Source: Candidatus Aminicenantes bacterium
GTDB lineage: Bacteria; Acidobacteriota; Aminicenantia; Aminicenantales; UBA4085
DNA length: 37,305 nt
NCBI GenBank assembly: GCA_026393855.1
Contig: JAPKZJ010000061.1
Coordinates: 1 to 37,305, forward strand
Reading direction: 5' to 3'
Shown here: positions 2,077-32,096 of the stretch, in pieces
Position numbering within the stretch: the first letter of the stretch is position 1
Layout: every line of letters begins with the position of its first letter
Translations under genes and position numbers: made by a program
The notes under the pieces: generated by a model
What the model was told of the DNA's origin: nothing
The model's database searches: none
What the model saw: the letters and a program-made list of their open reading frames with translations, nothing else

Positions 2077-3426
2077 TCACTTGTCCGGGTCGAGGATGAA
2101 GCCTTCCTTCATCATCCACTGGACTTCGTTGCGGGCGGCCCGGATGGTGTCGTTGGCCATCTTGAACCGTTCCTCGGCCGTGAAATGGAATCGGGCGACG
2201 CCTTCCTCGATGGCCTTGGTCCCGACGGCCACGGCCTCGCGCGGGAAAACCTCCCACTCGTCCATGTTCGGGATGATGTATTCCTCGTGGATGCCCTTGT
2301 CCTCGGCCACCTTGGCCAGCTCGCGGGCGGCGGCGACGCACATGCCGTCGGTAATCGTTCTGGCCCGGACATCGAGCGCGCCGCGGAAGATGCCGGGGAA
2401 GCCCAGCGAGTTGTTGACCTGGTTGGGGAAATCGCTCCGTCCGGTGGCCACGATCCGGGCCCCGGCCTCTTTGGCCTCCCAGGGCCAGATCTCCGGGATG
2501 GGATTGGCCTCGGCGAAGACGATGGCGTCTTTGGCCATGCCTTTGACCCACTCGGGCTTGATCGTGCCCGGACCCGGCGTCGACGCGCTGATGAGGACGT
2601 CGGCGCCCAGGAGGGCGTCGGCGATCGAGCCCTGCTTGCCCTTGGGGTTTGACCGCAGGCATATGTCCCACTTTTCCTTGAAGTTCTTCTGCAGGTTCTC
2701 CCGGTCGGCCCGGTCGCGGGACAGGATGCCCTTGGAATCGACCGAGAGCATGTTGTCCCCGTTGGCTCCGGCCAGCATGATCTGGTGGGCGATGTTGATG
2801 CCCGAGGCGCCGGCGCCGACGACGGTAATCTTAGCCTCGGCGATGTTCTTCTTGACGATCTTAAGGGCGTTGAGCAGGCCGGCCACGGTGACGCAGGCCG
2901 TGCCCTGCTGGTCGTCGTGCCAGACCGGGATCTCGCACTTGGCCCGCAGCTCTTCGAGGATCCGGAAGCACTTGGGCTGGGCGATGTCCTCGAGGTTGAA
3001 TCCACCGAAGGACGGCTGGAGGGCCCGGCCGATCGCGATGATCTTGTCGGGATCCTTTTCGTCGAGGCAGATCGGGTAGGCGTCGACGCCGCCGAGGTAC
3101 TTGTAGAGGATGCCCTTGCCCTCCATGACCGGCAGGCCCGCTTCGGGACCGATGTCGCCCAGTCCGAGGACTCGCGTCCCATCGCTGATGACGGCCACCG
3201 AGTTCCACTTGTTGGTGTACTCGTAGGCCTTCTGTTTGTCGGCCTGGATCTCCTTGCAGACGGCGGCGACACCGGGCGTGTACCAGATGGCGAAGTCGTT
3301 GAAGTCGCGGACCCGGCACTTCAGGCTTATGCCCATCTTGCCCTTGTAGAACTTGTGCAGGCGGGGGGCGTCCTTAGCCGGTTGGGCGGCTTTCTCGAGC
3401 AGCTCTTCGACGGTGACTTTCTTCAT
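2077..3426 (-). CDS. NAD(P)-dependent malic enzyme (decarboxylating)
   Basis: Converts malate to pyruvate and CO2 while reducing NAD(P)+, in the cytoplasm. It is 449 residues, the usual size of the small bacterial malic enzyme. The N-terminal malic domain carries YTPGVA (49-54) with the general-acid tyrosine, and a lysine in VMEGKG (about 104). Acidic metal ligands are in NLEDI (144-148) and WHDDQQGTA (169-177). The Rossmann domain has GAGASG (204-209). The start at 3426 is supported by AGGAGGT seven bases upstream; the frame remains open further upstream but without a better start. The gene follows nuoI by 76 bases, has its own promoter and terminator, and so is probably monocistronic. Cofactor preference (NAD or NADP) cannot be told by eye. 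Confidence 0.95.
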   Translation of the reverse strand: MKKVTVEELLEKAAQPAKDAPRLHKFYKGKMGISLKCRVRDFNDFAIWYTPGVAAVCKEIQADKQKAYEYTNKWNSVAVISDGTRVLGLGDIGPEAGLPVMEGKGILYKYLGGVDAYPICLDEKDPDKIIAIGRALQPSFGGFNLEDIAQPKCFRILEELRAKCEIPVWHDDQQGTACVTVAGLLNALKIVKKNIAEAKITVVGAGASGINIAHQIMLAGANGDNMLSVDSKGILSRDRADRENLQKNFKEKWDICLRSNPKGKQGSIADALLGADVLISASTPGPGTIKPEWVKGMAKDAIVFAEANPIPEIWPWEAKEAGARIVATGRSDFPNQVNNSLGFPGIFRGALDVRARTITDGMCVAAARELAKVAEDKGIHEEYIIPNMDEWEVFPREAVAVGTKAIEEGVARFHFTAEERFKMANDTIRAARNEVQWMMKEGFILDPDK

Positions 3427-3463
3427 TCCGATGACCTCCTGTGGGATGAAAAGACGGAGGGTA

Positions 3464-3491
3464 ATTATATGCGAACAGGGGTCAAAGTCAA
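3464..3491 (-). promoter_or_regulatory. Sigma70-type promoter of the malic enzyme gene
   Basis: On the minus strand TTGACT (3486-3491) and TATAAT (3464-3469) are separated by 16 bases. The start of transcription would fall about 30 bases before the ATG, leaving room for the AGGAGGT site. It sits in the 76-base gap after nuoI, giving the malic enzyme gene transcription independent of the nuo operon. Confidence 0.8.
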
Positions 3492-3502
3492 CGGGACCGG
3501 GC

Positions 3503-3976
3503 CTACCGCAGGAGCCGATCCAGGCTGTAAACGAGGTCCCGGCGCGATCCGGCAGCGAGGTCGATCGTCCCCGTATCCATCCGGATGGCGTCCTCGGGGC
3601 AGGCTTCGACGCAGAAGCCGCAGAAGCAGCAGCGGGCCAGATCAATCTCGAAGCGGGCGGCCGTCTTCTGGATCTCCGGGTCGGGGTCCTCGGCCGCTTC
3701 CACAAAGATGCACTCGGACGGGCAGACCGTGACGCAGAGAAGGCAGGCGACGCAGCGAGGCTTGCCGTCCGGGCGCGGCACGATCCGATGCAGGCTGCGA
3801 TGGCGGGCCGCCAGAGGCTTCTTCTTCTCGGGATACTGGATGGTCACCGCCCCGCGGCGCCGGGTCTTGATCCCGACGAGGGCCAGGGTGTGGAAGACCA
3901 TATTGACCAGGAAATGGCGGGCCGTGATGGCCGCGCCCCCGACCAGCGCCCAGAGAAGCCCGAGACTGCGCCGCAT
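3503..3976 (-). CDS. nuoI: NADH-quinone oxidoreductase subunit I
   Basis: Peripheral-arm subunit of complex I that carries the two [4Fe-4S] clusters (N6a, N6b) relaying electrons towards NuoB. It is 157 residues. Two ferredoxin motifs are complete: cysteines 75, 78, 81 and 85 (CVACLLCVTVCP) and 116, 119, 122 and 126 (CCFCGFCVEACP). The N-terminal 35 residues form an amphipathic/hydrophobic stretch expected to lie against the membrane and NuoH. The start at 3976 lies one base after the nuoH stop and is preceded by GGGGAG inside nuoH. It is the last nuo gene here: nuoJ would normally follow, but a promoter and the malic enzyme gene come next. Confidence 0.96.
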   Translation of the reverse strand: MRRSLGLLWALVGGAAITARHFLVNMVFHTLALVGIKTRRRGAVTIQYPEKKKPLAARHRSLHRIVPRPDGKPRCVACLLCVTVCPSECIFVEAAEDPDPEIQKTAARFEIDLARCCFCGFCVEACPEDAIRMDTGTIDLAAGSRRDLVYSLDRLLR

Positions 3977-3977
3977 G

Positions 3978-5051
3978 TTATCTCCCCACCCACAGGGCCG
4001 TGGCGACGATGTTGAGCAGGCTCAAAGGGATCAGAAGCTTCCAGCCCAGGTCCATCAGCTGGTCGTAGCGCAGGCGCGGATAGGTCCAGCGCAGGAGAAT
4101 CTGCAGCCAGCAGAAAAAGAAGACCTTGACCTGGAAGGCGAGGATGCGGACGGCCGCGACCAGCCAGGCGGGCCAGGTCCAGCCTCCGCCCCAGGGAAAA
4201 TGGAAGCCGTCGGCCCCCAGCCAGGGAACCTGCCAGCCGCCGAAGAAAAGCGTCGTGATGAGCGCCGCCACGATGAGGACCTCCATGAAATCCGTCATCA
4301 TGAACAGGCCCCATTTCAAGCCGCCGTATTCGGCGAAGAAGCCGATGATCTCGGACTCCCCCTCCGGCAGGTCGAAAGGCACCCGCTTGGTCTCCGCCAG
4401 GGCGGCGACGAAGAAGACCAGGAAACCCAGGGGCTGGAGGAAGACGCCCCAGCGGGGCAGGAAACCGGCCACCAGGCCGCCTTGGTAGGCCACGATTTCC
4501 GACATCCGCAGAGTCGGGAAAACCATGATCAATCCGACGAGCGACAGTCCCAGGGCCGCCTCGTAGGAGATGATCTGAGCGGCGCCCCGGACGCTGCCCA
4601 GGAGGGCGAATCGGCTGTTGGACGCCCAGCCGGCCAGAAGGACGCCGTAGACGCCGAGGGCCAGCATGGCCAGCACAAACAGCAGGCCGATGTCGGCATC
4701 GAAGACCTGGAGGGAGACGAGTCCGGAGCCGATGCGGATGGTCGGGCCGATCGGCACCGCGGCGATCGTCACGGCGACGAAGAAGAACGAGAGCAGCGGG
4801 GCCAGAGTGTGGAGGACGCGGTTGCCGAACCGCGGCACGAAGTCCTCCTTGAAGATCATCTTGATGGCATCGGCGATCGGCTGGAACAGGCCGACGATCC
4901 GCAAGCCCAGGATCTTGGCCCGATTGGCCCCGATCCGGTCCTGAATGACGGCGCTCTCCTTGCGCTCGAGCCAGGTCAGGTAGAGGGTGAAGACCAGGAA
5001 CCAGACCAGCAGGACGGCGGTCTTGATGAAGAAGATCAGGATTTCGCTCAT
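3978..5051 (-). CDS. nuoH: NADH-quinone oxidoreductase subunit H
   Basis: Membrane subunit of complex I (ND1 homologue) that forms much of the quinone chamber with NuoB and NuoD. It is 357 residues, with about eight to nine hydrophobic segments spread from residue 5 to the C-terminus. Conserved family features include LERKESAVIQDRIGANRA in the first cytoplasmic loop and ETKRVPFDLPEGESEIIGFF, the acidic loop near the quinone tunnel. Its ATG overlaps the nuoG stop in an ATGA arrangement. Confidence 0.97.
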   Translation of the reverse strand: MSEILIFFIKTAVLLVWFLVFTLYLTWLERKESAVIQDRIGANRAKILGLRIVGLFQPIADAIKMIFKEDFVPRFGNRVLHTLAPLLSFFFVAVTIAAVPIGPTIRIGSGLVSLQVFDADIGLLFVLAMLALGVYGVLLAGWASNSRFALLGSVRGAAQIISYEAALGLSLVGLIMVFPTLRMSEIVAYQGGLVAGFLPRWGVFLQPLGFLVFFVAALAETKRVPFDLPEGESEIIGFFAEYGGLKWGLFMMTDFMEVLIVAALITTLFFGGWQVPWLGADGFHFPWGGGWTWPAWLVAAVRILAFQVKVFFFCWLQILLRWTYPRLRYDQLMDLGWKLLIPLSLLNIVATALWVGR

Positions 5052-6580
5052 CGGCCGCCCCCGAGATCGGGATGAGCCGCCCGCATCGCCGCGGCCGCGA
5101 AGGAGGGATCGTCGGGCCGGCTGAAGACGGCGGCGTCCAGATCCAAGGCCGTCCCCAGGGAAGCCAGAATCCAGCTCTCGCTCCGGACATCGGGGCAGGG
5201 CGGATGGACGGGCTCGAACGCCTGGACGCGATCGCCCTCGCTGACGAACGTTCCGCTCTTCTCGAACACGCCGGCCGAAGGCAGGACAAGATCAAAGGCC
5301 TCTTCAAGCCCCGTCGGCTGGGGTGCGATCAAGATCTTCGTCCGGATAGCGGCGAGCGCGACGCCCGGCTCGCGCCAAGCGGCGATTCCCGCCGGGTCGG
5401 CCGCCAGGGCGATCAGCAGGGAGGAGCCCGTGACCGCGGCGGCCGGGTCGACGGATCGATCGAATCCGAGACGGTCCGCACCGCGGGCATTGGCCGAACG
5501 ATCCGGCCGGAGGAGCAAGCCCTCCGCCGCTCCCTCCCGTGGGTCGAGAAAGGCGAACCGCTCGACGCCCAACCCGGCCCGGAACAGCGCCGAGGCCAGG
5601 AACAGCTCTTCCGCCGTCAGCCGGGAGCTTAAAAGGACGGCGATTTCCTTTTGTTTTCCGGTCGTCTTCATCTCCCGAAGCCGTTCGGCCAGATCTGCGA
5701 TCAGCCTCTTCCAGTCCGCGGCTTCCCGTCCTCCGTGAAGACGGTTCTTGACCAGGCCCATCGACTCGTGGCGGCCGCGGTCGCAAAGCCACCAGCCGTT
5801 GATCTCCGGGTTGACACGAGGGCGGAACCGGAAAATGCCCGAAGATTCGGGCCGGCGGGCGAAGCCGGGGTGAAAATCCGCATCCATGGCGCAGCCGCGG
5901 GCGCAGAAAGGGCAGATCGTCGGCCGCGCTTCGAGGAACCAAGGCCGGGTCCGGAACCGGAAGCGGGCGTCGGTGATGGCGCCGACCGGGCAGAGGTCGA
6001 CCAGGTTGCCGGCGTCGACGGAAGCCACCGGACGGTCGTCGTAAAGGCCGATCTCGGCCCGAACCCCGCGTTCAAAGAGGCCCAGTTCCCGAGTCCCGGT
6101 GATGGCGGCCAGGAATCGGACGCACCGGGTGCAGAGGACGCACCGTTCGCGGTCGAGGATGAGGCCGGCGCCGAGAGGGACGAGCTTGTCGCGCCGCAAC
6201 TGTTCTTCGGCGAACGGCCCCGCGGTCAGCCCGTATTCGTGGGCGTAGTTCTGGAGCTTGCACTCGCCCGCCTTGTCGCAGATCGGGCAATCCAGCGGGT
6301 GTTCGGTGAGAAGAAGCTCCAGCACGGCCCGGCGGGCCTCGCGGACGGACGGGCTCGAAGTGGCGATCTTCATTTCCTCGCGCACGACGGTCGAACAGGC
6401 CAGCTCGAGCTTGGGCAGGCCTTCCACGGCCACCAAACAAATCCGGCAGCTTCCCTCCGGCGGCAGAGAAGCATGGCGGCAGAGGTGCGGAATGCGGATG
6501 CCCGCGGCCTTGGCCGCGTCGAGCACTGTGGCGCCTTCCCTGGCCCAGACGGGCCGGCCGTCAAAGTAAATCCGGATCAT
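5048..6580 (-). CDS. nuoG: NADH-quinone oxidoreductase subunit G (short form)
   Basis: Iron-sulfur subunit of the NADH-oxidising module. It is 510 residues from the ATG at 6580, which overlaps the nuoF stop (ATGA) and has GGAGG upstream. The [2Fe-2S] ligands are C34, C45, C48 and C62. A His/Cys [4Fe-4S] site is H94, C98, C101 and C107. A further [4Fe-4S] has C147, C150, C153 and C197. An N7-like motif is C223, C226, C230 with a cysteine in WLCDRG near 259. The C-terminal molybdopterin-oxidoreductase-like part is only about 250 residues and degenerate, so the protein is shorter than the roughly 700-900 residues of E. coli-type NuoG. No frameshift is apparent; it looks like a naturally compact form. 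Confidence 0.94.
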   Translation of the reverse strand: MIRIYFDGRPVWAREGATVLDAAKAAGIRIPHLCRHASLPPEGSCRICLVAVEGLPKLELACSTVVREEMKIATSSPSVREARRAVLELLLTEHPLDCPICDKAGECKLQNYAHEYGLTAGPFAEEQLRRDKLVPLGAGLILDRERCVLCTRCVRFLAAITGTRELGLFERGVRAEIGLYDDRPVASVDAGNLVDLCPVGAITDARFRFRTRPWFLEARPTICPFCARGCAMDADFHPGFARRPESSGIFRFRPRVNPEINGWWLCDRGRHESMGLVKNRLHGGREAADWKRLIADLAERLREMKTTGKQKEIAVLLSSRLTAEELFLASALFRAGLGVERFAFLDPREGAAEGLLLRPDRSANARGADRLGFDRSVDPAAAVTGSSLLIALAADPAGIAAWREPGVALAAIRTKILIAPQPTGLEEAFDLVLPSAGVFEKSGTFVSEGDRVQAFEPVHPPCPDVRSESWILASLGTALDLDAAVFSRPDDPSFAAAAMRAAHPDLGGGR

Positions 6581-7845
6581 CGGGGCGCCTCCGGGGGCCG
6601 AGGATGGGCGACGGCTGCATCGAGCTCGGTGCGGAACTTGCGGGTCAGGGCCAGGATCGGCAAAGCCGCCGCGTCCCCCAGCGGGCAGAGCGTCCGGCCG
6701 CGGACGAGGCCTGCCACGCGCTCGATCTCCGCCGGATCGCCCGGCCGGCCTTCCCCTTTGGCCAGACGGGATGCGATCTTGGCCAGCCAGGAGGTTCCCA
6801 GGCGGCAAGGCGTGCATTGGCCGCACGATTCGTGGGCGTAGAACGAGGCCATGCGATCCAGCACGGTCACGATCGGCGTGTCGTCGGCGATGACGATGAT
6901 CCCGGCCGATCCGAGCATGGAGCCTGCCGCGGCCAGGGAATCGACATCCATGGCAACGTTGATTTCGTCCGGGAGAAGAAGGGGCGAAGACAACCCACCG
7001 GGGATGACCGCTTTCAAGCGGCGGCCCGGGGGAAGCCCTCCGGCGTCTTCGAAAATGATCTCCCGCAGGGGGGTCCCGACCGCCCGTTCATACAGCCCGG
7101 GCCGGACGACCGTTCCGCTAACGCCGAACAGGCGGGTCCCTCCGTCCTTGGGCCGGCCCAGGGCAAGGAACGCCGCCGCGCCGTCCGCCATCAGACGAGG
7201 CAAATTGGCCAGCGTTTCGACGTTTTGAATCACGGTCGGCTGGCGGAACAGCCCGATCGTGGCGGGAAAGGGAGGCTTGAGCCTCGGCCAGCCGCGCTTG
7301 CCTTCGAGAGACTCCAGGAGCGCCGTCTCTTCGCCGCAGACATAGGCTCCGGCGCCGCGATGGACGAGAACATCCAGGCCGAATTCAGAGCCCAGGACGC
7401 GACGGCCCAGGCAGCCGCAGGCATAGGCCTCGGCCACGGCCGCCTCGAGCCGGCGGGCGATCATCTCGTATTCGCCCCGGATGTAAACGAACGCGGTATG
7501 CACCCCGACGGCGTAGGAGGCGATGATGATTCCTTCTAGAAGAAGGTGGGGGGTGCGCGTCAGGATGCGCCTGTCTTTGAAAGTCCCCGGCTCGCCCTCA
7601 TCGGCGTTAACGCAGAGATAGCGCGGTCCGGCCCCGTCCTGGGGCACGAAGCCCCATTTGGCGCCGGCCGGGAATCCGGCGCCGCCCCGTCCCCGGAGAG
7701 CCGCTTTCCGGACCTCGTCCCGGACGGCCTCCGGCGTCAGGGAGGTCAGCGCCTTGCGGGCCGACTGGTATCCGCCGCCGGCTTCGTATTCGGCCAAGCG
7801 CCAGCTCCCGGCGTTCCGCGCGTCATTAAGCAAGAGGGCGGCCAT
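6577..7845 (-). CDS. nuoF: NADH-quinone oxidoreductase subunit F
   Basis: The NADH-binding, FMN-containing subunit where electrons enter complex I. It is 422 residues, the normal length. RGRGGAGFPAGAKW (51-64) and NADEGEPGTFKDR (80-92) form the FMN/NADH site, and AYVCGEETALLESLEGKRG continues the flavoprotein fold. The N3 [4Fe-4S] ligands are C341, C344 and C347 (ESCGQCTPCRLG) and C387 (TLCPLGD). It starts three bases after the nuoE stop, inside the co-oriented nuo operon. Confidence 0.97.
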   Translation of the reverse strand: MAALLLNDARNAGSWRLAEYEAGGGYQSARKALTSLTPEAVRDEVRKAALRGRGGAGFPAGAKWGFVPQDGAGPRYLCVNADEGEPGTFKDRRILTRTPHLLLEGIIIASYAVGVHTAFVYIRGEYEMIARRLEAAVAEAYACGCLGRRVLGSEFGLDVLVHRGAGAYVCGEETALLESLEGKRGWPRLKPPFPATIGLFRQPTVIQNVETLANLPRLMADGAAAFLALGRPKDGGTRLFGVSGTVVRPGLYERAVGTPLREIIFEDAGGLPPGRRLKAVIPGGLSSPLLLPDEINVAMDVDSLAAAGSMLGSAGIIVIADDTPIVTVLDRMASFYAHESCGQCTPCRLGTSWLAKIASRLAKGEGRPGDPAEIERVAGLVRGRTLCPLGDAAALPILALTRKFRTELDAAVAHPRPPEAPR

Positions 7846-10144: not shown

Positions 10145-10599
10145 CGCCAATCCGGTTCCAAGTGTTGGATCTTGTCTTGCAGCTTGAGGAGGGCGTCCAG
10201 GACCATTTCCGGCCGCGGCGGACAGCCGGGGATGTAGATATCCACGGGGATGATCCGGTCGATGCCTTGGACGACGGCGTAATTGTCATAGATGCCGCCG
10301 CTCGCGGCGCAGGCGCCGAAGGCGATGACCCACTTGGGCTCGGTCATCTGATCGTAAACGGTCTTGAGGACAGGGGCTAATTTCTGCGAAATCGTGCCGA
10401 CGACCAGCAACAGGTCGGATTGGCGGGGCGAGAAACGCGTCCAACCGGCGCCGAACCGGTCGATGTCGAAGTGGGAGCAGGCGGCGGACATGTACTCCAT
10501 GCCGCAGCAGGCGGTGACAAAGGGATAGTGAAAGAGGCTGTACTTGCGGCCCCAGCCCAGCATGGCGTTGAAGCTGGTCGTGATGAAGTTCCCGGACAT
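10123..10599 (-). CDS. nuoB: NADH-quinone oxidoreductase subunit B
   Basis: Carries the terminal [4Fe-4S] cluster N2 that reduces quinone. It is 158 residues. The unusual tandem-cysteine ligation is present: C31-C32 (TACCGME), C97 (GACAASGG) and C126 (PGCPPRP). The lysine-rich C-terminus overlaps nuoC. It starts four bases after the nuoA stop. Confidence 0.97.
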
Positions 10600-10603
10600 C
10601 GGA

Positions 10604-10948
10604 TCAGTCCCAAGTGAAGGCGCCCTTGGCCCAGGCGTAGGCCAGGCCGGCCGCCAAAATCGCGGTGTAGACGCTCATGGCCGCCAGGGCCGGGCCCTTG
10701 ATCGAGCGCAGGACAAGAGCCCACGGGAAATAAAAGGCCGCTTCGACGTCGAGCAGGAGAAAGAGGAAGGCGACCAGGCTGAACTTGATGGGGAAAGGGC
10801 GGATCCCCTTCTGGAGCTCGGGGCTGCCGCACTCGAACGGCATCTCCTTGGCCGGGTTCGTCCGGCGCGGTCCAAGTACGGCGTTAAGAGAAAGGAGAAT
10901 GAGGCCGAGCAGACCAAACAGCGCGAAGACGACGACGAGGGCATTCAT
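10604..10948 (-). CDS. nuoA: NADH-quinone oxidoreductase subunit A
   Basis: Small membrane subunit (ND3 homologue). It is 114 residues with three hydrophobic helices (about 3-25, 57-75 and 85-107). The cytoplasmic loop [16 protein letters not shown] holds the conserved cysteine that responds to the active/deactive transition in the ND3 family. It is the first gene of the nuo operon, 54 bases after lpdA, with a promoter in that gap. Confidence 0.96.
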
Positions 10949-10969
10949 GATTTTTCTGCGGTCGGAGGA

Positions 10970-10998
10970 ATTTTATCGGAAAGGTAAGATTTTCGCAA
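10970..10998 (-). promoter_or_regulatory. Probable promoter of the nuo operon
   Basis: On the minus strand TTGCGA (10993-10998) and TAAAAT (10970-10975) are 17 bases apart, upstream of nuoA. Transcription would start about 15 bases before the nuoA ATG. Readthrough from lpdA is also possible because no terminator hairpin separates the genes. Confidence 0.6.
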
Positions 10999-11002
10999 TG
11001 TC

Positions 11003-12406
11003 TCAATTGACGGCGTGGATGGCGACTCCTCCGACCTTGAGGGCGGCCTCCATGACCGCCTCGGACAGGGTCGGGTGGATATGGATGGAGCCGGCCACCT
11101 CGGCCGCGGTCAGCCCGCGAGTCATGGCCAGGGTCAGCTCCGCCAGCAGGTCGCTGGCGCAGGGACCCAGGATATGGGCGCCGAGGATCCGGTCGTCGGG
11201 CCCAGCCACGATCTTGACCTGCCCTTCGGCGCAGTCCATGGTCAGGGCCCGCCCGTTGGCCTGGAAAGAGAAGACTCCGATACGAACGTGGTCGGTCCGG
11301 GATCGGGCCTCCTCCTCCGTCAGTCCGACCGAGGCGAATTCGGGATCGGTGAAGACGGCCATCGGCAGCGCGTCATAGCGGACCGTCTCGCGGCCGCCGG
11401 CGGCGTTGGCGGCTGCCGCCAGCCCTTCGTGCGAGGCCTTATGGGCCAAGAGCTTGCCGCCGATGAGGTCCCCGATGGCGAAGACGCCCGGCACGATGGT
11501 GCGAAGGGTCTCGTCGGTCTCCAGGTATCCCTGGCGGCTGAGCGGAAGGAACGGCGCCCCGGTGAACAAGGATTCGGAATTGGGCTTGCGGCCCGCCGCC
11601 AGCAGGACCCGCTCGGCTTGGAACTCGAACGGGGTCTGATTCTTGAGGCAGGTTCCGGCCAGAATAGAGCGGCCGTCAGCCCGCCGGTGGGATTCGATTC
11701 GCATTTGGGTGAGGACTTTGACCCCCTGTCGCTTGAGGAGCAGCTCCAGACGGCCGGCCAGCTCGCGGTCGCTTCCCGGCAGGATCTGGGGCAGAATCTC
11801 CAACACCGTGACTTCGGTGCCCAGACGGGCGTAGATCGTGCCCATCTCCAGGCCGATCGCCCCGGCCCCGACGACGAGCAGCGACTTGGGGGGCGCTTCG
11901 AAGGCCAGCGCTTCCGTACTGGTGACGACGTCGGTTCCGTCCGCGGCCAGGAAAGGCAGGTTCGCGGCCCGGCTTCCGGAGGCCAGGATGATCGAACCGG
12001 CTTCATATTTTTTCTCCCCTTCACCGGTCCGGGCCAGAACGGTCCGCTCATCCGCAAGGATCGCCTCCCCCGCCACCACCTCGATGCCGCCGTGCTGCAG
12101 CAGGAATTCCACGCCCCGGACGAGACGGTCGACGACTTTGCGCTTCTCCTCCTGGACCTTGATCCAGTTGCAGCCGATCTGGGCGAGGGGTCCGGTCAGG
12201 GTCTTGCTGCGGCGGACCTCCTGAAAAACCTTGGTCTGATGGAGCAGATGCTTGGTCGGGATGCAGCCCCAGTTCATGCAGGTCCCGCCGACGCGATCGC
12301 GCTCGAAAAGGACGACGCTCCGGCCGAGCTGGGCGGCCCGGATGGCGGCGACATAGCCGCCGGGCCCGCCGCCGATGATGGCGATGTCTTTCTTGAGCGT
12401 TTCCAT
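11003..12406 (-). CDS. lpdA: Dihydrolipoyl dehydrogenase
   Basis: FAD enzyme (E3) that reoxidises dihydrolipoamide in 2-oxoacid dehydrogenase or glycine-cleavage complexes, making NADH. It is 467 residues, normal for the family. The FAD site is IIGGGPGGYVA (10-20), the redox disulfide is C43/C48 in GGTCMNWGCIPTK, and the NAD site is VVGAGAIGLE in the middle. The catalytic base pair is H444 with E449 (HIHPTLSE). The start has GGAGAT just upstream. No E1/E2 genes or lipoyl-domain proteins are in the window, so the partner complex is unknown. Placement before nuoA links an NADH producer to the NADH oxidiser. Confidence 0.95.
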   Translation of the reverse strand: METLKKDIAIIGGGPGGYVAAIRAAQLGRSVVLFERDRVGGTCMNWGCIPTKHLLHQTKVFQEVRRSKTLTGPLAQIGCNWIKVQEEKRKVVDRLVRGVEFLLQHGGIEVVAGEAILADERTVLARTGEGEKKYEAGSIILASGSRAANLPFLAADGTDVVTSTEALAFEAPPKSLLVVGAGAIGLEMGTIYARLGTEVTVLEILPQILPGSDRELAGRLELLLKRQGVKVLTQMRIESHRRADGRSILAGTCLKNQTPFEFQAERVLLAAGRKPNSESLFTGAPFLPLSRQGYLETDETLRTIVPGVFAIGDLIGGKLLAHKASHEGLAAAANAAGGRETVRYDALPMAVFTDPEFASVGLTEEEARSRTDHVRIGVFSFQANGRALTMDCAEGQVKIVAGPDDRILGAHILGPCASDLLAELTLAMTRGLTAAEVAGSIHIHPTLSEAVMEAALKVGGVAIHAVN

Positions 12407-12420
12407 ATGGATCTCCTCGT

Positions 12421-12437
12421 CCCGGCTTGAGGCCGGG
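12421..12437 (-). other. Leader hairpin before lpdA
   Basis: CCCGGC and GCCGGG flank a five-base loop, forming a compact stem directly upstream of the GAGGAGAT ribosome binding site of lpdA. It lies between the predicted transcription start and the start codon, so it could affect translation. No further aptamer-like structure is visible. Confidence 0.45.
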
Positions 12438-12457
12438 GTTTCGACTTGAGGATTCTT

Positions 12458-12486
12458 ACCATAGCCGAGTCGCCTTTCCTTTTCAA
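12458..12486 (-). promoter_or_regulatory. Probable promoter of lpdA
   Basis: On the minus strand TTGAAA (12481-12486) and TATGGT (12458-12463) are 17 bases apart. The predicted transcript leader is about 45 bases and contains the small CCCGGC hairpin and the ribosome binding site. Confidence 0.6.
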
Positions 12487-12588
12487 GCCGGACTCCCCCT
12501 CATGGTAGCCTATGCCGTTTGACTTGCATCTTCTCGTTCAGAAAAACGCAATCTTAAAACCAGGGCGAGGGACGTAGGGGGGATTCCA

Positions 12589-12624
12589 TTGGAGAGGGAA
12601 CCTTTAGCGGGTTCCCCGCTCCAA
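12589..12624. repeat. Hairpin 1a of the tandem unit
   Basis: TTGGAG and CTCCAA form the base, and GGGAACC with GGTTCCC the upper stem around a TTTAGC-type loop. An identical copy lies 189 bases on, at 12778-12813. Confidence 0.8.
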
Positions 12625-12630
12625 CTGACT

Positions 12631-12677
12631 CCCTTGGCGGGGGAACCTTTGACAGGTTCCCCCTCCAACGCCAAGGG
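12631..12677. repeat. Hairpin 1b of the tandem unit
   Basis: GGGGGAACCT and AGGTTCCCCC form a perfect 10-bp stem around TTGAC. In this copy TTGGCG can pair with the outer CGCCAA, leaving CTCCAA unpaired. There is no run of T after it on either strand, so it is not a simple terminator. Confidence 0.8.
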
Positions 12678-12819
12678 CTGCCTCCCTCTCAAGGATGCCT
12701 TTATCGTTTGACTTGTATTTTATCGTTCAGAAAATCGCAATCTTAAAACCAGGGCGAGGAGCGTAGGGGGGATTCCATTGGAGAGGGAACCTTTAGCGGG
12801 TTCCCCGCTCCAACTGACT

Positions 12820-12866
12820 CCCTTGGAGGGGGAACCTTTGCCAGGTTCCCCCTCCAACGCCAAGGG
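12820..12866. repeat. Hairpin 2b of the tandem unit
   Basis: The second-copy counterpart of hairpin 1b. Here TTGGAG replaces TTGGCG, so the stem extends without a break to 15 perfect base pairs (ending at CTCCAA), and the outer CGCCAA is left out. Confidence 0.8.
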
Positions 12867-12952
12867 CTGCCTCCCCCTCAAGGATGCCTTTATCGTTTGA
12901 CTTGTTTTTATCGTTCAGAAAATCGCAGTCTTTAAAACCAGGGCGAGGGGCG

Positions 12953-13093
12953 TAGGGGGCAAAACCCATCGGCGAGGGAGCGGGCACGGTCCTGTCCTCA
13001 TCGGGCGAACGCTAAGCCCGATGAGGATAGGGAGCGACCGAGCCGGCCGGAGCGAACGCCCTCGCTGGGGGCGTGAGCGTGTTTTGCCCCCTA
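12953..13093. repeat. 141-bp nested inverted repeat
   Basis: Outer arms TAGGGGGCAAAAC (12953-12965) and its exact complement GTTTTGCCCCCTA (13081-13093). Intermediate arms GCGAGGG (12972-12978) and CCCTCGC (13059-13065). Inner arms CCTCATCGGGC (12996-13006) and GCCCGATGAGG (13016-13026) around a 9-base loop. It ends 15 bases before the -35 box of the barrel gene. Confidence 0.85.
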
Positions 13094-28417: not shown

Positions 28418-29578
28418 CTACATCGGCGGCTTATGGCCCGCCAACAGCCCCAGAAAATTGTCGAGGAGTCGAGGGTGGAAGGCGATCCCCCGTTCCTGGC
28501 GCAGGATTTCAAGAATCGCTTCCATCGATTTCGGTTCACTATAGGCGCGGCGGCTGCGCAAGGCGTCGAACACATCGGCGATGGCGACCATTTGTCCGAC
28601 GATGTGGGGCTTCCACCCCGGGCCGAAGTAGGGGTATCCGGTCCCGTCGAATTTGCGGTGATGTTCGAGAGCCACCAGCGCGGCCAGCTTGGGAACGCCC
28701 TCCTGGGTCATCAGATACCGGCCGCCTTTCAGGGTATGCTTTTCAATGACGACGCGTTCCTGCGGCGTCAACCGGCCCGGCTTGCCCAGGATCTCGGGGG
28801 GGATGAATATCTTGCCCATGTCGTGGAGCAAGGCCGCGATCCCGATCTCGCGGACGGACGCGGAGGAAAAGCCGAGAATACGGGCCTGTCCGATGGTTAG
28901 AATTCCGACATTCACGGCATGGGTGAAGGTGTATTCGTGGACCTCCTTGACCGAAGCCAGCAGGCCGATCGGATCGGCGTCCAAACCCAGTATGCCGATG
29001 AACCGTTTGACGATCTCTTCGGCGTTGTGCATGTCGACACGTTTGTTCCGCTCAGCCAGTTGGTATAGCTCTTTGATCCGGTCGAATTCCTGATCGCCGC
29101 CGATCAGGCTGACGTCCGTCGTCGGCCGCTCCCCGGCTGGAATAGAGCAGGCTTCCAATGGCCAGGTCTCCTCCCCCATCCGGAGTTCCACTTTGCCGAG
29201 CCGGATGCCGGTGGAGGATCGGAGCGGGGTGCCGCCTTTGGCCGCCAGGCCGGCTATGAAGCTCATCAGTTCGAGCTTGGTGATGCCGGCCGCAAAGGTG
29301 AGACGCTCGATTTCGTTTTCCTTTAAAATAGAGATGAATTTTTTTATAAAGAGCCTGGTTTCCGCCAGAGGCCGATCCTCGACGATGAGGCGATCGCCGA
29401 CCAGGAAAACCGTTATGGACTTGATTGTCCCCAACAGGCTCGTCAGCTCCCCAAAGGCCGATTGGACATAGTCCACGACATAGGGGTGATCACAGCCGTA
29501 ATAGCGCATATTGGAGATCGCCGACGTCAGAGGATAAGCGGCCCGCAAAAATCCCTCTTGAACATCGAATTCCGTCAT
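28418..29578 (-). CDS. HD-GYP domain protein, probable cyclic dinucleotide phosphodiesterase
   Basis: 386 residues. The C-terminal HD-GYP domain (about 205-385) has H220, the HD pair 252-253 (LLHDMGK), H281, HH 306-307, the GYP-type motif DGTGYP (311-316) and D335, so the metal site looks complete. These enzymes typically hydrolyse c-di-GMP. The N-terminal part (about 8-145) is not a REC, PAS or GAF domain that I recognise; it has short helices with HPYVVDYV and later GITKLELMSFIAGL, and appears related to the N-terminus of the upstream HEAT-type protein. No signal peptide or membrane helix, so it should be cytoplasmic. GGAGG lies 11 bases before the ATG. Confidence 0.93.
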   Translation of the reverse strand: MTEFDVQEGFLRAAYPLTSAISNMRYYGCDHPYVVDYVQSAFGELTSLLGTIKSITVFLVGDRLIVEDRPLAETRLFIKKFISILKENEIERLTFAAGITKLELMSFIAGLAAKGGTPLRSSTGIRLGKVELRMGEETWPLEACSIPAGERPTTDVSLIGGDQEFDRIKELYQLAERNKRVDMHNAEEIVKRFIGILGLDADPIGLLASVKEVHEYTFTHAVNVGILTIGQARILGFSSASVREIGIAALLHDMGKIFIPPEILGKPGRLTPQERVVIEKHTLKGGRYLMTQEGVPKLAALVALEHHRKFDGTGYPYFGPGWKPHIVGQMVAIADVFDALRSRRAYSEPKSMEAILEILRQERGIAFHPRLLDNFLGLLAGHKPPM

Positions 29579-29612
29579 CAGCTCGTCGCCTCCGTTCCCA
29601 AATCCGAAAAGC

Positions 29613-31856
29613 TCATAGCGGGCCCCGGATGATGGTTTGAAGAACCCCGCAAATCGCCTTGATTCGGAAGTCCTTGTCCCGCCGTCCGAAGCTCAGTAAT
29701 CCCGCCAGGTTCTCCGGAGGATAGCCTTCCAGGGACTCAAAGATGGCCAGCTTCAAGCTCCGCCGGGCGCCGGCGTGAAAAGGCCTCTTCCGGCGCGCCA
29801 GCTTCTCCAGAGTGGGCAGGGTCAGGGGGTCGCCGATGCGGCCCAGTGCTCTGATGATCTCCCCATTGCGCTGGTCATCCGGCCAGCGGATGACGGAGGG
29901 ATCGATCATCCTCCGAAGATCGCTCGCCACTAAACGGACCCTATACAGCCCGGCCAGTTTGATCGCTCCCCGCGATTCCAGCTCGATTTCGGATTGAATG
30001 GCTCTGCGCAGGACGTCCGGCGCCGCCTCATCCCGGAAGCTCAGTAAGGCGGACAGGGCTTCCAATCGAACCTGCGAATCCGCATGACGGAGGAGAGGCC
30101 GGAGACTCGGGATACCGGCGGGAGTGCCGTTTTGCCTAATGAAGGCCAGCAGCGTCCGAATCGCGCCCGGGGGCCGGTCCATAAGCCTGCGTAGGGCTTC
30201 CTCGACCGCGGCCTCACGAAATTGCTTGAGCAGATGAAGTAAAGGCCGACTGCCGCCAAGCCCTTCCTTCGCGACGAGCAGGTCCATCAGCTCCGGGACG
30301 CACGAAGCGCCCAGCGCGCTCAATAATGCCGAGGCCTCGCCGGTCTTCAGGAGTTCGCAGTTCTTGAACGCCCGGACCGCCGCGGAGATGAACGCCGCGT
30401 CTTCGAACGCCCGAAGGGACGTTTCGGTCGCTCGCGTCAGGGGCCCGGGCGTCTCTTCGGCCCGGCGGCGAAGCCGGCCCAGGATCTTGAGCAACAAGCC
30501 GAATTCGCCGGCGCGAAGATGATGGGGCGCATATTCGGCGGCTTTCCCGGCGAAAACCTCATAGTCCTCCGCATCGAGCTCTTGCTCCAACAGCGCAGCC
30601 AGGAGATAGCCGATCCCCGTTTCGATCCGTTGCTCATCGAGAGCTCCGTCGAGCTCGGCAGGAGAAAAGGGAGACCCTGATTCTTCCTCAGCCGGAGAAA
30701 AATCCGCGGCGCCGAGTACCGGCATCCGGCCCAGATCCTCGAGAGTCGCGTCATACTCCGCGTCCACGTACTCTTCGTGTTTTTCCCGGGCAAAGAGAAC
30801 GCGGTATTTTTCCCGAGACAGGCGGGACGGGCTTTCCGCCGGCCCGATCGTCCCCCCAACGGAGGGCAACGCCCCCCGGAGGCCGGACAATTCGCCGATC
30901 ATGGTCAGAAGAGCGGGAGAGATGGCCCGATTCTCCGCATCGGCCTGCTCCAGCATTTCCAGGATTAGGCTTTCATCCAAGCCGGCCAGCGATTCGTTGG
31001 GCCGGTCATTCACATGGGGAAAGGCCTGGGACAAAAACCGCCGTTTAATCTCCGGCCGCAAATTGCGCAGAAAGACGCTCAGCTTCTCCATGATCAGCGG
31101 ATCGGACTTCCGGCCGGACGGTTCCGCCAGGATTTCGCCCCAATCGCCGGACAGGACCTCCGGGATCGAGGGAAGCGTATTGATGAACTCGGAGAGCTTG
31201 AGGGGATCGATGTCGTCCTGGAAGTCCGGAGGGTTTCCCGGATCAATCCCGGCCCGTCCGCCGCCGGTCATTTTCTTGACAAAATCCTGCCAGAGGTCGG
31301 ATTGGCGACCCGGCCGATGGTCGGCTGAAGAGGGAGAAATCTCCGCTTCTTCAGTCAGGTGAAAAGCCTTGTAATCCATTTCCTTGAGGAGAATATGGGT
31401 CAAGCCCGCCTGCGCCGCCATTCCCTCGATGCCGCCCCCCGTTCGAATTTCCTCCGGGGAGCGATTCACGAGGCGATGAAGGTCGACCAGCTCTTCCCTT
31501 CTCAATCCCTCGAGGAGCGTGATGGAGATGATATCCCGTCTATTTAAAACCCCGGCGAATTCCCTGAAAACGGGATTCCCGGGGTTCAGAGGCTCTCCGC
31601 CGGCCAACAGAAAATCCTTCGCCGCCCCCAGGATCAAAGAAGGCCGGGTCCGGAGCAGAACCAGGAGCATCTCATAGACCCGATCGATGCTTTGGATGAC
31701 CTGAGGATGGTCGGCCGGATAGAGGCCGGCATAGGTTCGGGACAGGTTGAATTCCTTGATAACCCGCGTCAGGGATTCTTTGTCCGGAAAAAAATCCCGC
31801 TCCTCCGGCCGGACCTCGGCCGCTTTCCGCACTTCTTCATCTTGATCGGAAACCAT
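29613..31856 (-). CDS. HEAT-repeat-like protein with HD-GYP-associated N-terminal module
   Basis: 747 residues, no signal peptide or membrane segment. Residues about 27-166 (LSRTYAGLYPADHPQVIQSI ... GLRREELVDLHRLV ... GLTHILLKEMD) appear to correspond to the N-terminal module of the HD-GYP protein encoded 34 bases downstream. The middle (about 180-420) is acidic and low in obvious domains. The C-terminal third (about 510-745) is a string of helical pairs typical of HEAT/armadillo repeats (GIPSLRPLLRHADSQVRLEA, LALGRIGDPLTLPTLEKLA-like units). No catalytic motif is visible. I infer a scaffold or adaptor for the phosphodiesterase. The start ATG has a poorly spaced ribosome binding site. Confidence 0.8.
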   Translation of the reverse strand: MVSDQDEEVRKAAEVRPEERDFFPDKESLTRVIKEFNLSRTYAGLYPADHPQVIQSIDRVYEMLLVLLRTRPSLILGAAKDFLLAGGEPLNPGNPVFREFAGVLNRRDIISITLLEGLRREELVDLHRLVNRSPEEIRTGGGIEGMAAQAGLTHILLKEMDYKAFHLTEEAEISPSSADHRPGRQSDLWQDFVKKMTGGGRAGIDPGNPPDFQDDIDPLKLSEFINTLPSIPEVLSGDWGEILAEPSGRKSDPLIMEKLSVFLRNLRPEIKRRFLSQAFPHVNDRPNESLAGLDESLILEMLEQADAENRAISPALLTMIGELSGLRGALPSVGGTIGPAESPSRLSREKYRVLFAREKHEEYVDAEYDATLEDLGRMPVLGAADFSPAEEESGSPFSPAELDGALDEQRIETGIGYLLAALLEQELDAEDYEVFAGKAAEYAPHHLRAGEFGLLLKILGRLRRRAEETPGPLTRATETSLRAFEDAAFISAAVRAFKNCELLKTGEASALLSALGASCVPELMDLLVAKEGLGGSRPLLHLLKQFREAAVEEALRRLMDRPPGAIRTLLAFIRQNGTPAGIPSLRPLLRHADSQVRLEALSALLSFRDEAAPDVLRRAIQSEIELESRGAIKLAGLYRVRLVASDLRRMIDPSVIRWPDDQRNGEIIRALGRIGDPLTLPTLEKLARRKRPFHAGARRSLKLAIFESLEGYPPENLAGLLSFGRRDKDFRIKAICGVLQTIIRGPL

Positions 31857-32011
31857 TCCCTTTTTTTAGAATATCATTATTGTAGCGGGTTGTTCAAACC
31901 GTCTTCGGATCAGCCTCGGCCTCATTGGAGATTCCGGTCTGCCGCCCCAGCCCCGGTTTGTTCCCCTTTCCTGATCAAGTCGCCGGGGAATTCCATCATC
32001 TTCGACGCTAT

Positions 32012-32096
32012 TCGCTGGGGGGGGGGGTCGCGTTTTTTGCCCCTCACACCCCGAGCCCTCCTCGCTGGGGGAGCAAGCGTCTTTGGCTCCCCACAT
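32012..32096 (+). repeat. Two copies of a TCGCTGGGGG...CCCC element
   Basis: Copies begin at 32012 and 32062, 50 bases apart. Each reads TCGCTGGGGG, a short spacer, a GCGT/TCTTT stretch and a C-rich end. They match the right arm of the nested inverted repeat at 13062-13110, including the following GAGCCCT. The second can fold with GGAGC/GCTCC arms. Confidence 0.6.

Follow-up and report, generated by a model that had tools for sequence, protein, structure and literature searches.

An HD-GYP protein is generally taken to be a single polypeptide that includes its own fused sensor. The closest described relatives of the system reported here are PmGH of Persephonella marina (PDB 4mcw/4mdz/4me4) and RpfG, in which GAF or REC domains are found N-terminal to the HD-GYP domain, and the catalytically inactive HD-GYP proteins DvhD and Bd1817. 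In the binuclear Y/F subgroup of HD-GYP domains, Tyr or Phe typically takes the place of E185, the eighth metal ligand of the trinuclear subgroup as represented by PmGH (PMC4159591). The HD-GYP domain of DvhD binds c-di-GMP without hydrolysing it (PMC13090378). The analysed stretch of 37,305 nucleotides (hereafter, the window) lies on contig C61 of a Candidatus Aminicenantes genome (3.68 Mb, 95% complete), and encodes an HD-GYP protein, P0001, adjacent to a HEAT-repeat protein, P0002, with which it shares an N-terminal module (Table 1).

Table 1. Features of the HEAT/HD-GYP gene pair in the window and of a second pair in the same genome (positions are those of the window unless a contig is named)
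Feature	Position	Strand	Basis
Gene 1, module-HEAT protein P0002, 747 aa	29613..31856	-	Open frame; Pfam HEAT_2 E=3.6e-10 (residues 567-625); family alignments A1 and A6
Shared N-terminal module of P0002 (residues 24-172)	31341..31787	-	Module profile E=1.4e-42; alpha/beta elements, pLDDT mostly 80-93
C-terminal all-helical HEAT-like solenoid of P0002 (residues about 408-744)	29625..30635	-	HEAT_2, AlphaFold2 and Foldseek
Gene 2, module-HD-GYP protein P0001, 386 aa	28418..29578	-	Open frame; Pfam HD_5 E=9.5e-22 (residues 232-366)
Shared N-terminal module of P0001 (residues about 5-133)	29180..29566	-	Module profile E=1.4e-32; AlphaFold2
HD-GYP domain of P0001 (residues about 214-381)	28436..28939	-	phmmer alignment to PmGH (4mcw) E=2.4e-29; residue table
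12-codon mini-ORF spanning the gap between the P0002 and P0001 genes	29578..29616	-	Read directly from the sequence
Second, diverged pair, genome G000, contig C88 (L101)	HEAT-like 11581-13026; HD-GYP-like 10152-11579		Module profile

Both open reading frames were confirmed, and their coordinates bear out the spacing of 34 bases given in the initial annotation. The gap is bridged by a mini-ORF whose ATG overlaps the stop codon of the HEAT gene (ATGA) and whose own stop overlaps the HD-GYP start (TGATG), an arrangement that could possibly preserve translational coupling between the two genes. The orthologues of P0001 and P0002 in one related genome (G003) are 52 and 40% identical, respectively.

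The N-termini of P0001 and P0002 are homologous, as had been proposed in the initial annotation. Compared as two sequences alone, residues 27-195 of P0001 align with residues 46-198 of P0002 at 22% identity (BLASTP, E=4e-4). When homologues of each N-terminus were gathered from related genomes and made into separate profiles, the two families aligned over 131 columns with a probability of 99.0% (hhalign, E=9.2e-18), whereas five control comparisons of other parts of the same proteins gave probabilities of 1.5% or lower. Reciprocally, an HMM derived from the HEAT N-termini only matched P0001 (E=9.7e-11) and one derived from the HD-GYP N-termini only matched P0002 (E=1.9e-11); in these searches of 2769 ORFs the first matches without the module appeared at E>0.4, bar one HEAT homologue that is cut by a contig end. 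An origin of the resemblance in chance, or in the convergence of helical sequence, with an accidental adjacency of the genes, would fit an identity of only about 20% and a first alignment made by eye, but it is refuted by the profile comparison (E=9e-18) with its clean controls, by the clean reciprocal HMM matches, by the identical topology predicted for both modules and by the retention of the pair in two phyla, and its probability is negligible.

AlphaFold2 models of both proteins reveal an alpha/beta module rather than the purely helical one first described, with a common order of elements, i.e. a-a-b-b-a-b-a-b, and with pLDDT values mostly above 80. The elements are a3-27, a32-49, b54-60, b63-66, a76-87, b92-96, a101-112 and b125-128 in P0001 (mean pLDDT 80.9, pTM 0.74), and a26-45, a51-70, b73-78, b83-85/88-90, a95-106, b109-115, a120-130, two short extra helices and b155-159 in P0002, whose model has a low overall pTM of 0.33 and was used for the module and the general solenoid nature only. 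The module spans about 125-150 residues. Its signature in both classes comprises a Y-x3-H-P motif closing the first helix (Y27, H31 and P32 in P0001; Y46, H50 and P51, within YPxDHP, in P0002), followed by a hydrophobic beta hairpin, a strand resembling 'IERLxFxxG', a helix cap with 'EEL' and a last strand with 'GIxxI'.

The module is an undescribed domain of about 130 residues. Residues 1-150 gave no relevant Pfam or NCBIfam match, the module profile has no convincing sequence relative in the PDB, and the fold has no PDB match at E<=0.001 (Foldseek; best E=0.16, weakly GAF-like) and no match in a viral fold library. Sequence matches of the module profile to Octarellin and Mx1, i.e. to a designed protein and to eukaryotic proteins, were weak and of partial coverage and were attributed to chance. 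The module resembles the GAF domains of PmGH and PelD in being alpha/beta and, in the case of PmGH, in its position before an HD-GYP domain; however, the fold matches are at E 0.16 or worse with a TM of about 0.2, there is no Pfam GAF match to the module, and homology with GAF was rejected because neither the fold nor the profile matches are significant.

PmGH is the best PDB sequence match of P0001 (4mcw, E=2.4e-29, phmmer), and the seven metal ligands common to both HD-GYP subgroups are kept, with H220, H252, D253, H281, H306, H307 and D335 of P0001 corresponding to H189, H221, D222, H250, H276, H277 and D305 of PmGH; the catalytic lysine position is also kept (K256). The eighth ligand, PmGH E185, is replaced by Y216, which places P0001 with the Y/F subgroup. 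Unlike PmGH and RpfG, P0001 has the N-terminal module in place of GAF or REC, and its family has an obligate-looking HEAT gene upstream. A further difference lies in the motif that names the domain, which in P0001 reads HHRKFDGTGYP in place of the canonical HHExxDGxGYP, the GYP part being intact and R308 replacing the glutamate. That glutamate is absent from all 60 module-HD-GYPs compared (35 Leu, 10 Ile, 6 Met, 5 Arg and 4 others), such that the family motif is HH[L/I/M/R/T/V/S] in place of HHE. Of the 16 HD-GYPs in which no module was detected, 14 have the glutamate; in the other two, L128 and L031, a frameshift or stop has probably disrupted a module-HD-GYP gene. Judged from their sequences, the module-HD-GYPs are a distinct HD-GYP subfamily, a variant subgroup and not the canonical form. 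P0001 itself is without a C-terminal extension that is present in most of its relatives.

The seven shared ligands are kept by 61 of 72 unique partners, P0001 included; up to 11 fail on this point, in the case of L126_11025 solely because the contig stops short, and the loss is clear in L091, L092, L094 and the C88 copy. As ligands are lost in up to 11 of the 72 partners, a purely enzymatic role is unlikely for the family as a whole. Thus, P0001 fits the initial description of a complete HD-GYP phosphodiesterase in its metal ligands but not in its motif, and the family includes catalytically broken members. In this respect several module-HD-GYPs are like DvhD and Bd1817, in that the metal ligands or the GYP motif are lost and the protein is retained; P0001 differs from both in keeping its ligands and in belonging to a family tied to a HEAT partner. 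Unlike P0001, DvhD is a membrane receptor that contains Cache and PAS domains (PMC13090378).

The C-terminal half of P0002 resembles HEAT-repeat solenoids both in profile, with HEAT profile matches in 9 of the 21 members of its family, and in fold; the AlphaFold2 model has helical repeats of moderate confidence, which match karyopherin and condensin solenoids in the PDB (Foldseek, E=2.5e-4 to 1e-3). It differs from those solenoids in having its own N-terminal alpha/beta module, directly after which its family has a conserved linker, LDYSxLLxGEGEEIKDIW, that is a candidate contact site; in P0002 this stretch is partly degraded and interrupted. A contig profile search with P0002 as a single sequence returned no match; its relatives were found with a closer sub-alignment, the full 21-sequence alignment being too diverse.

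The search for the pair and the module covered two phyla, Acidobacteriota and Omnitrophota, and the pair is found in both, with 67 distinct non-redundant adjacent pairs in which the order is always HEAT then HD-GYP; the conservation in related genomes that was asked of the pair at the outset is therefore evident, as is the similarity of the N-termini. In 44 of the 67 pairs the genes overlap by 4-46 bases, most commonly by 11, 4 or 17 and in some cases by 8, a count that leaves out apparent overlaps of 80-280 bases as probable artefacts of taking the most upstream start, some start codons being uncertain. The overlaps suggest that translation of the HEAT and HD-GYP proteins may be coupled in a fixed ratio. 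By the module profile, the module is present in 85 of 94 genomes of the window's order (42 of the 45 high-quality ones) and in 60 of 198 genomes sampled across the Acidobacteriota. Five module-HD-GYP genes have no scored partner; in four cases the contig ends (L104, L105, L142 and L210), and in the fifth (L181) the adjoining HEAT gene has a weak module match.

A tree of 129 modules separates the HEAT and HD-GYP classes into nearly distinct clades, the labels needing 3 changes compared with about 41 when shuffled, although the tree rests on few columns and its fine branching is to be treated with caution. Given so few label changes, the history is most simply explained by a single ancient duplication after which the two copies were inherited together. 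Partner modules have diverged to correlated degrees (r=0.94, with 0 of 999 permutations as high), as is expected from joint inheritance, and the correlation does not by itself show binding. Whole pairs have also been duplicated as units. Two pairs lie in tandem in L176 and L177, and the genome of the window has a second, diverged pair on C88, the HD-GYP copy of which is without catalytic residues (HDLGT, EHRLLMD and no GYP). The two genomes of the same genus have only weaker module matches, of the strength of this second pair type.

Module-HEAT genes without a module-HD-GYP neighbour occur in one family of the phylum (L170, L172, L175 and L184) and also in L171 and L178, which implies that the HEAT protein can work without a module-HD-GYP. 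In L170 (4905-5573 and 1103-2167) the module-HEAT gene belongs to a run of overlapping genes, with a small plain HD-domain gene upstream of it and a gene for a histidine kinase after it; L175 and L184 have similar genes at the upstream position. In L178 (3489-6159) a small gene that, judged by eye, is STAS-like, i.e. of the anti-sigma antagonist type, directly precedes the module-HEAT gene.

The module-HEAT unit also occurs in fusions. It follows GGDEF diguanylate cyclase and AAA ATPase domains in a 1190-aa protein of the window's order (L090) and in a 1359-aa protein of the Omnitrophota (L196), to which L197 and L198 are similar in length and in where the module lies. In an 1164-aa protein (L202) the unit follows PilZ and protein kinase domains. 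GGDEF domains make c-di-GMP, and PilZ domains read it. These fusions tie the HEAT unit itself, and not only its HD-GYP neighbour, to c-di-GMP, and lend indirect support to the role in cyclic-dinucleotide turnover initially suggested for the pair. The module also occurs alone before PAS-histidine kinases (L199 and L200), and twice in one protein (L201). At the L202 locus (2808-7696) the gene for the PilZ-kinase-module-HEAT fusion overlaps a 466-aa gene with no Pfam match and a weak HD-GYP profile match (E=4e-4).

We propose that the pair may form a two-protein signalling unit for the control of a cyclic dinucleotide, most likely c-di-GMP, in which the HEAT protein would scaffold or regulate the HD-GYP protein via the shared modules, a reading that we consider about equally likely to hold or to fail. 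An ancient duplication would have given both proteins the alpha/beta module of about 130 residues, which would regulate the HD-GYP domain in P0001 and is joined to the solenoid in P0002; the two modules may bind one another or share a binding partner, and the solenoid may offer a docking surface, so that the HEAT protein would serve as a scaffold or regulatory subunit and determine how active the HD-GYP domain is or where it is located. The HD-GYP domain would then hydrolyse the dinucleotide or, in degenerate members, only sense it. The clade structure and correlated divergence of the modules are also expected from simple co-inheritance. It is unlikely, although worth weighing, that the module is instead a sensor of a small molecule or protein ligand, such that the two proteins answer one cue in parallel, with HD-GYP and HEAT outputs, and do not bind each other. 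Such a role would suit the position of the module N-terminal to catalytic or output domains, including in the PAS-histidine kinases, and the best PDB fold matches are to GAF and phytochrome-type sensor domains and PelD; those matches are, however, far from significant, the module is internal in the GGDEF-AAA-module-HEAT, PilZ-kinase-module-HEAT and tandem-module proteins, and the gene overlap and fixed order suggest co-produced partners.

Somewhat less probable still is that the HD-GYP protein acts chiefly as a receptor for a cyclic dinucleotide rather than as an enzyme, relaying its state to the HEAT protein in the way that DvhD and LapD signal to their partners. The alteration of the HHE motif in all module-HD-GYPs and the retention of the gene pair where ligands are lost are in keeping with a receptor, for which DvhD is a precedent, but the seven ligands in most partners, including P0001, are hard to explain without selection for metal binding, and PmGH retained activity when residues inside the GYP motif were replaced by alanine (PMC4159591).

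Extending the proposed two-protein unit beyond the window, we suggest, with rather less than even confidence, that the module may be a new and widespread cyclic-dinucleotide-linked regulatory domain of the Acidobacteriota and Omnitrophota, and that the module-HEAT proteins may be dedicated non-enzymatic subunits of a distinct HD-GYP subfamily (HH[L/R]xxDxxGYP), i.e. an unrecognised two-component type of c-di-GMP control in which the partner slot may also be filled by a fused GGDEF or PilZ-kinase. We found no report of such a HEAT and HD-GYP pair in the open-access literature, a scope that makes this weak evidence of novelty. If the proposal is correct, much of the Acidobacteriota has a regulatory subunit devoted to the turnover or sensing of dinucleotides. 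The module supplies a domain family to which many unannotated N-termini of signalling proteins (GGDEF, histidine kinase and PilZ-kinase) can be assigned, and the loss of the HHE glutamate provides a subfamily marker that is open to bench testing.

Between the HEAT gene and a divergent nusA-like gene, the window has a run of about a dozen C residues (32000-32030), possibly a phase-variable tract or an assembly error.
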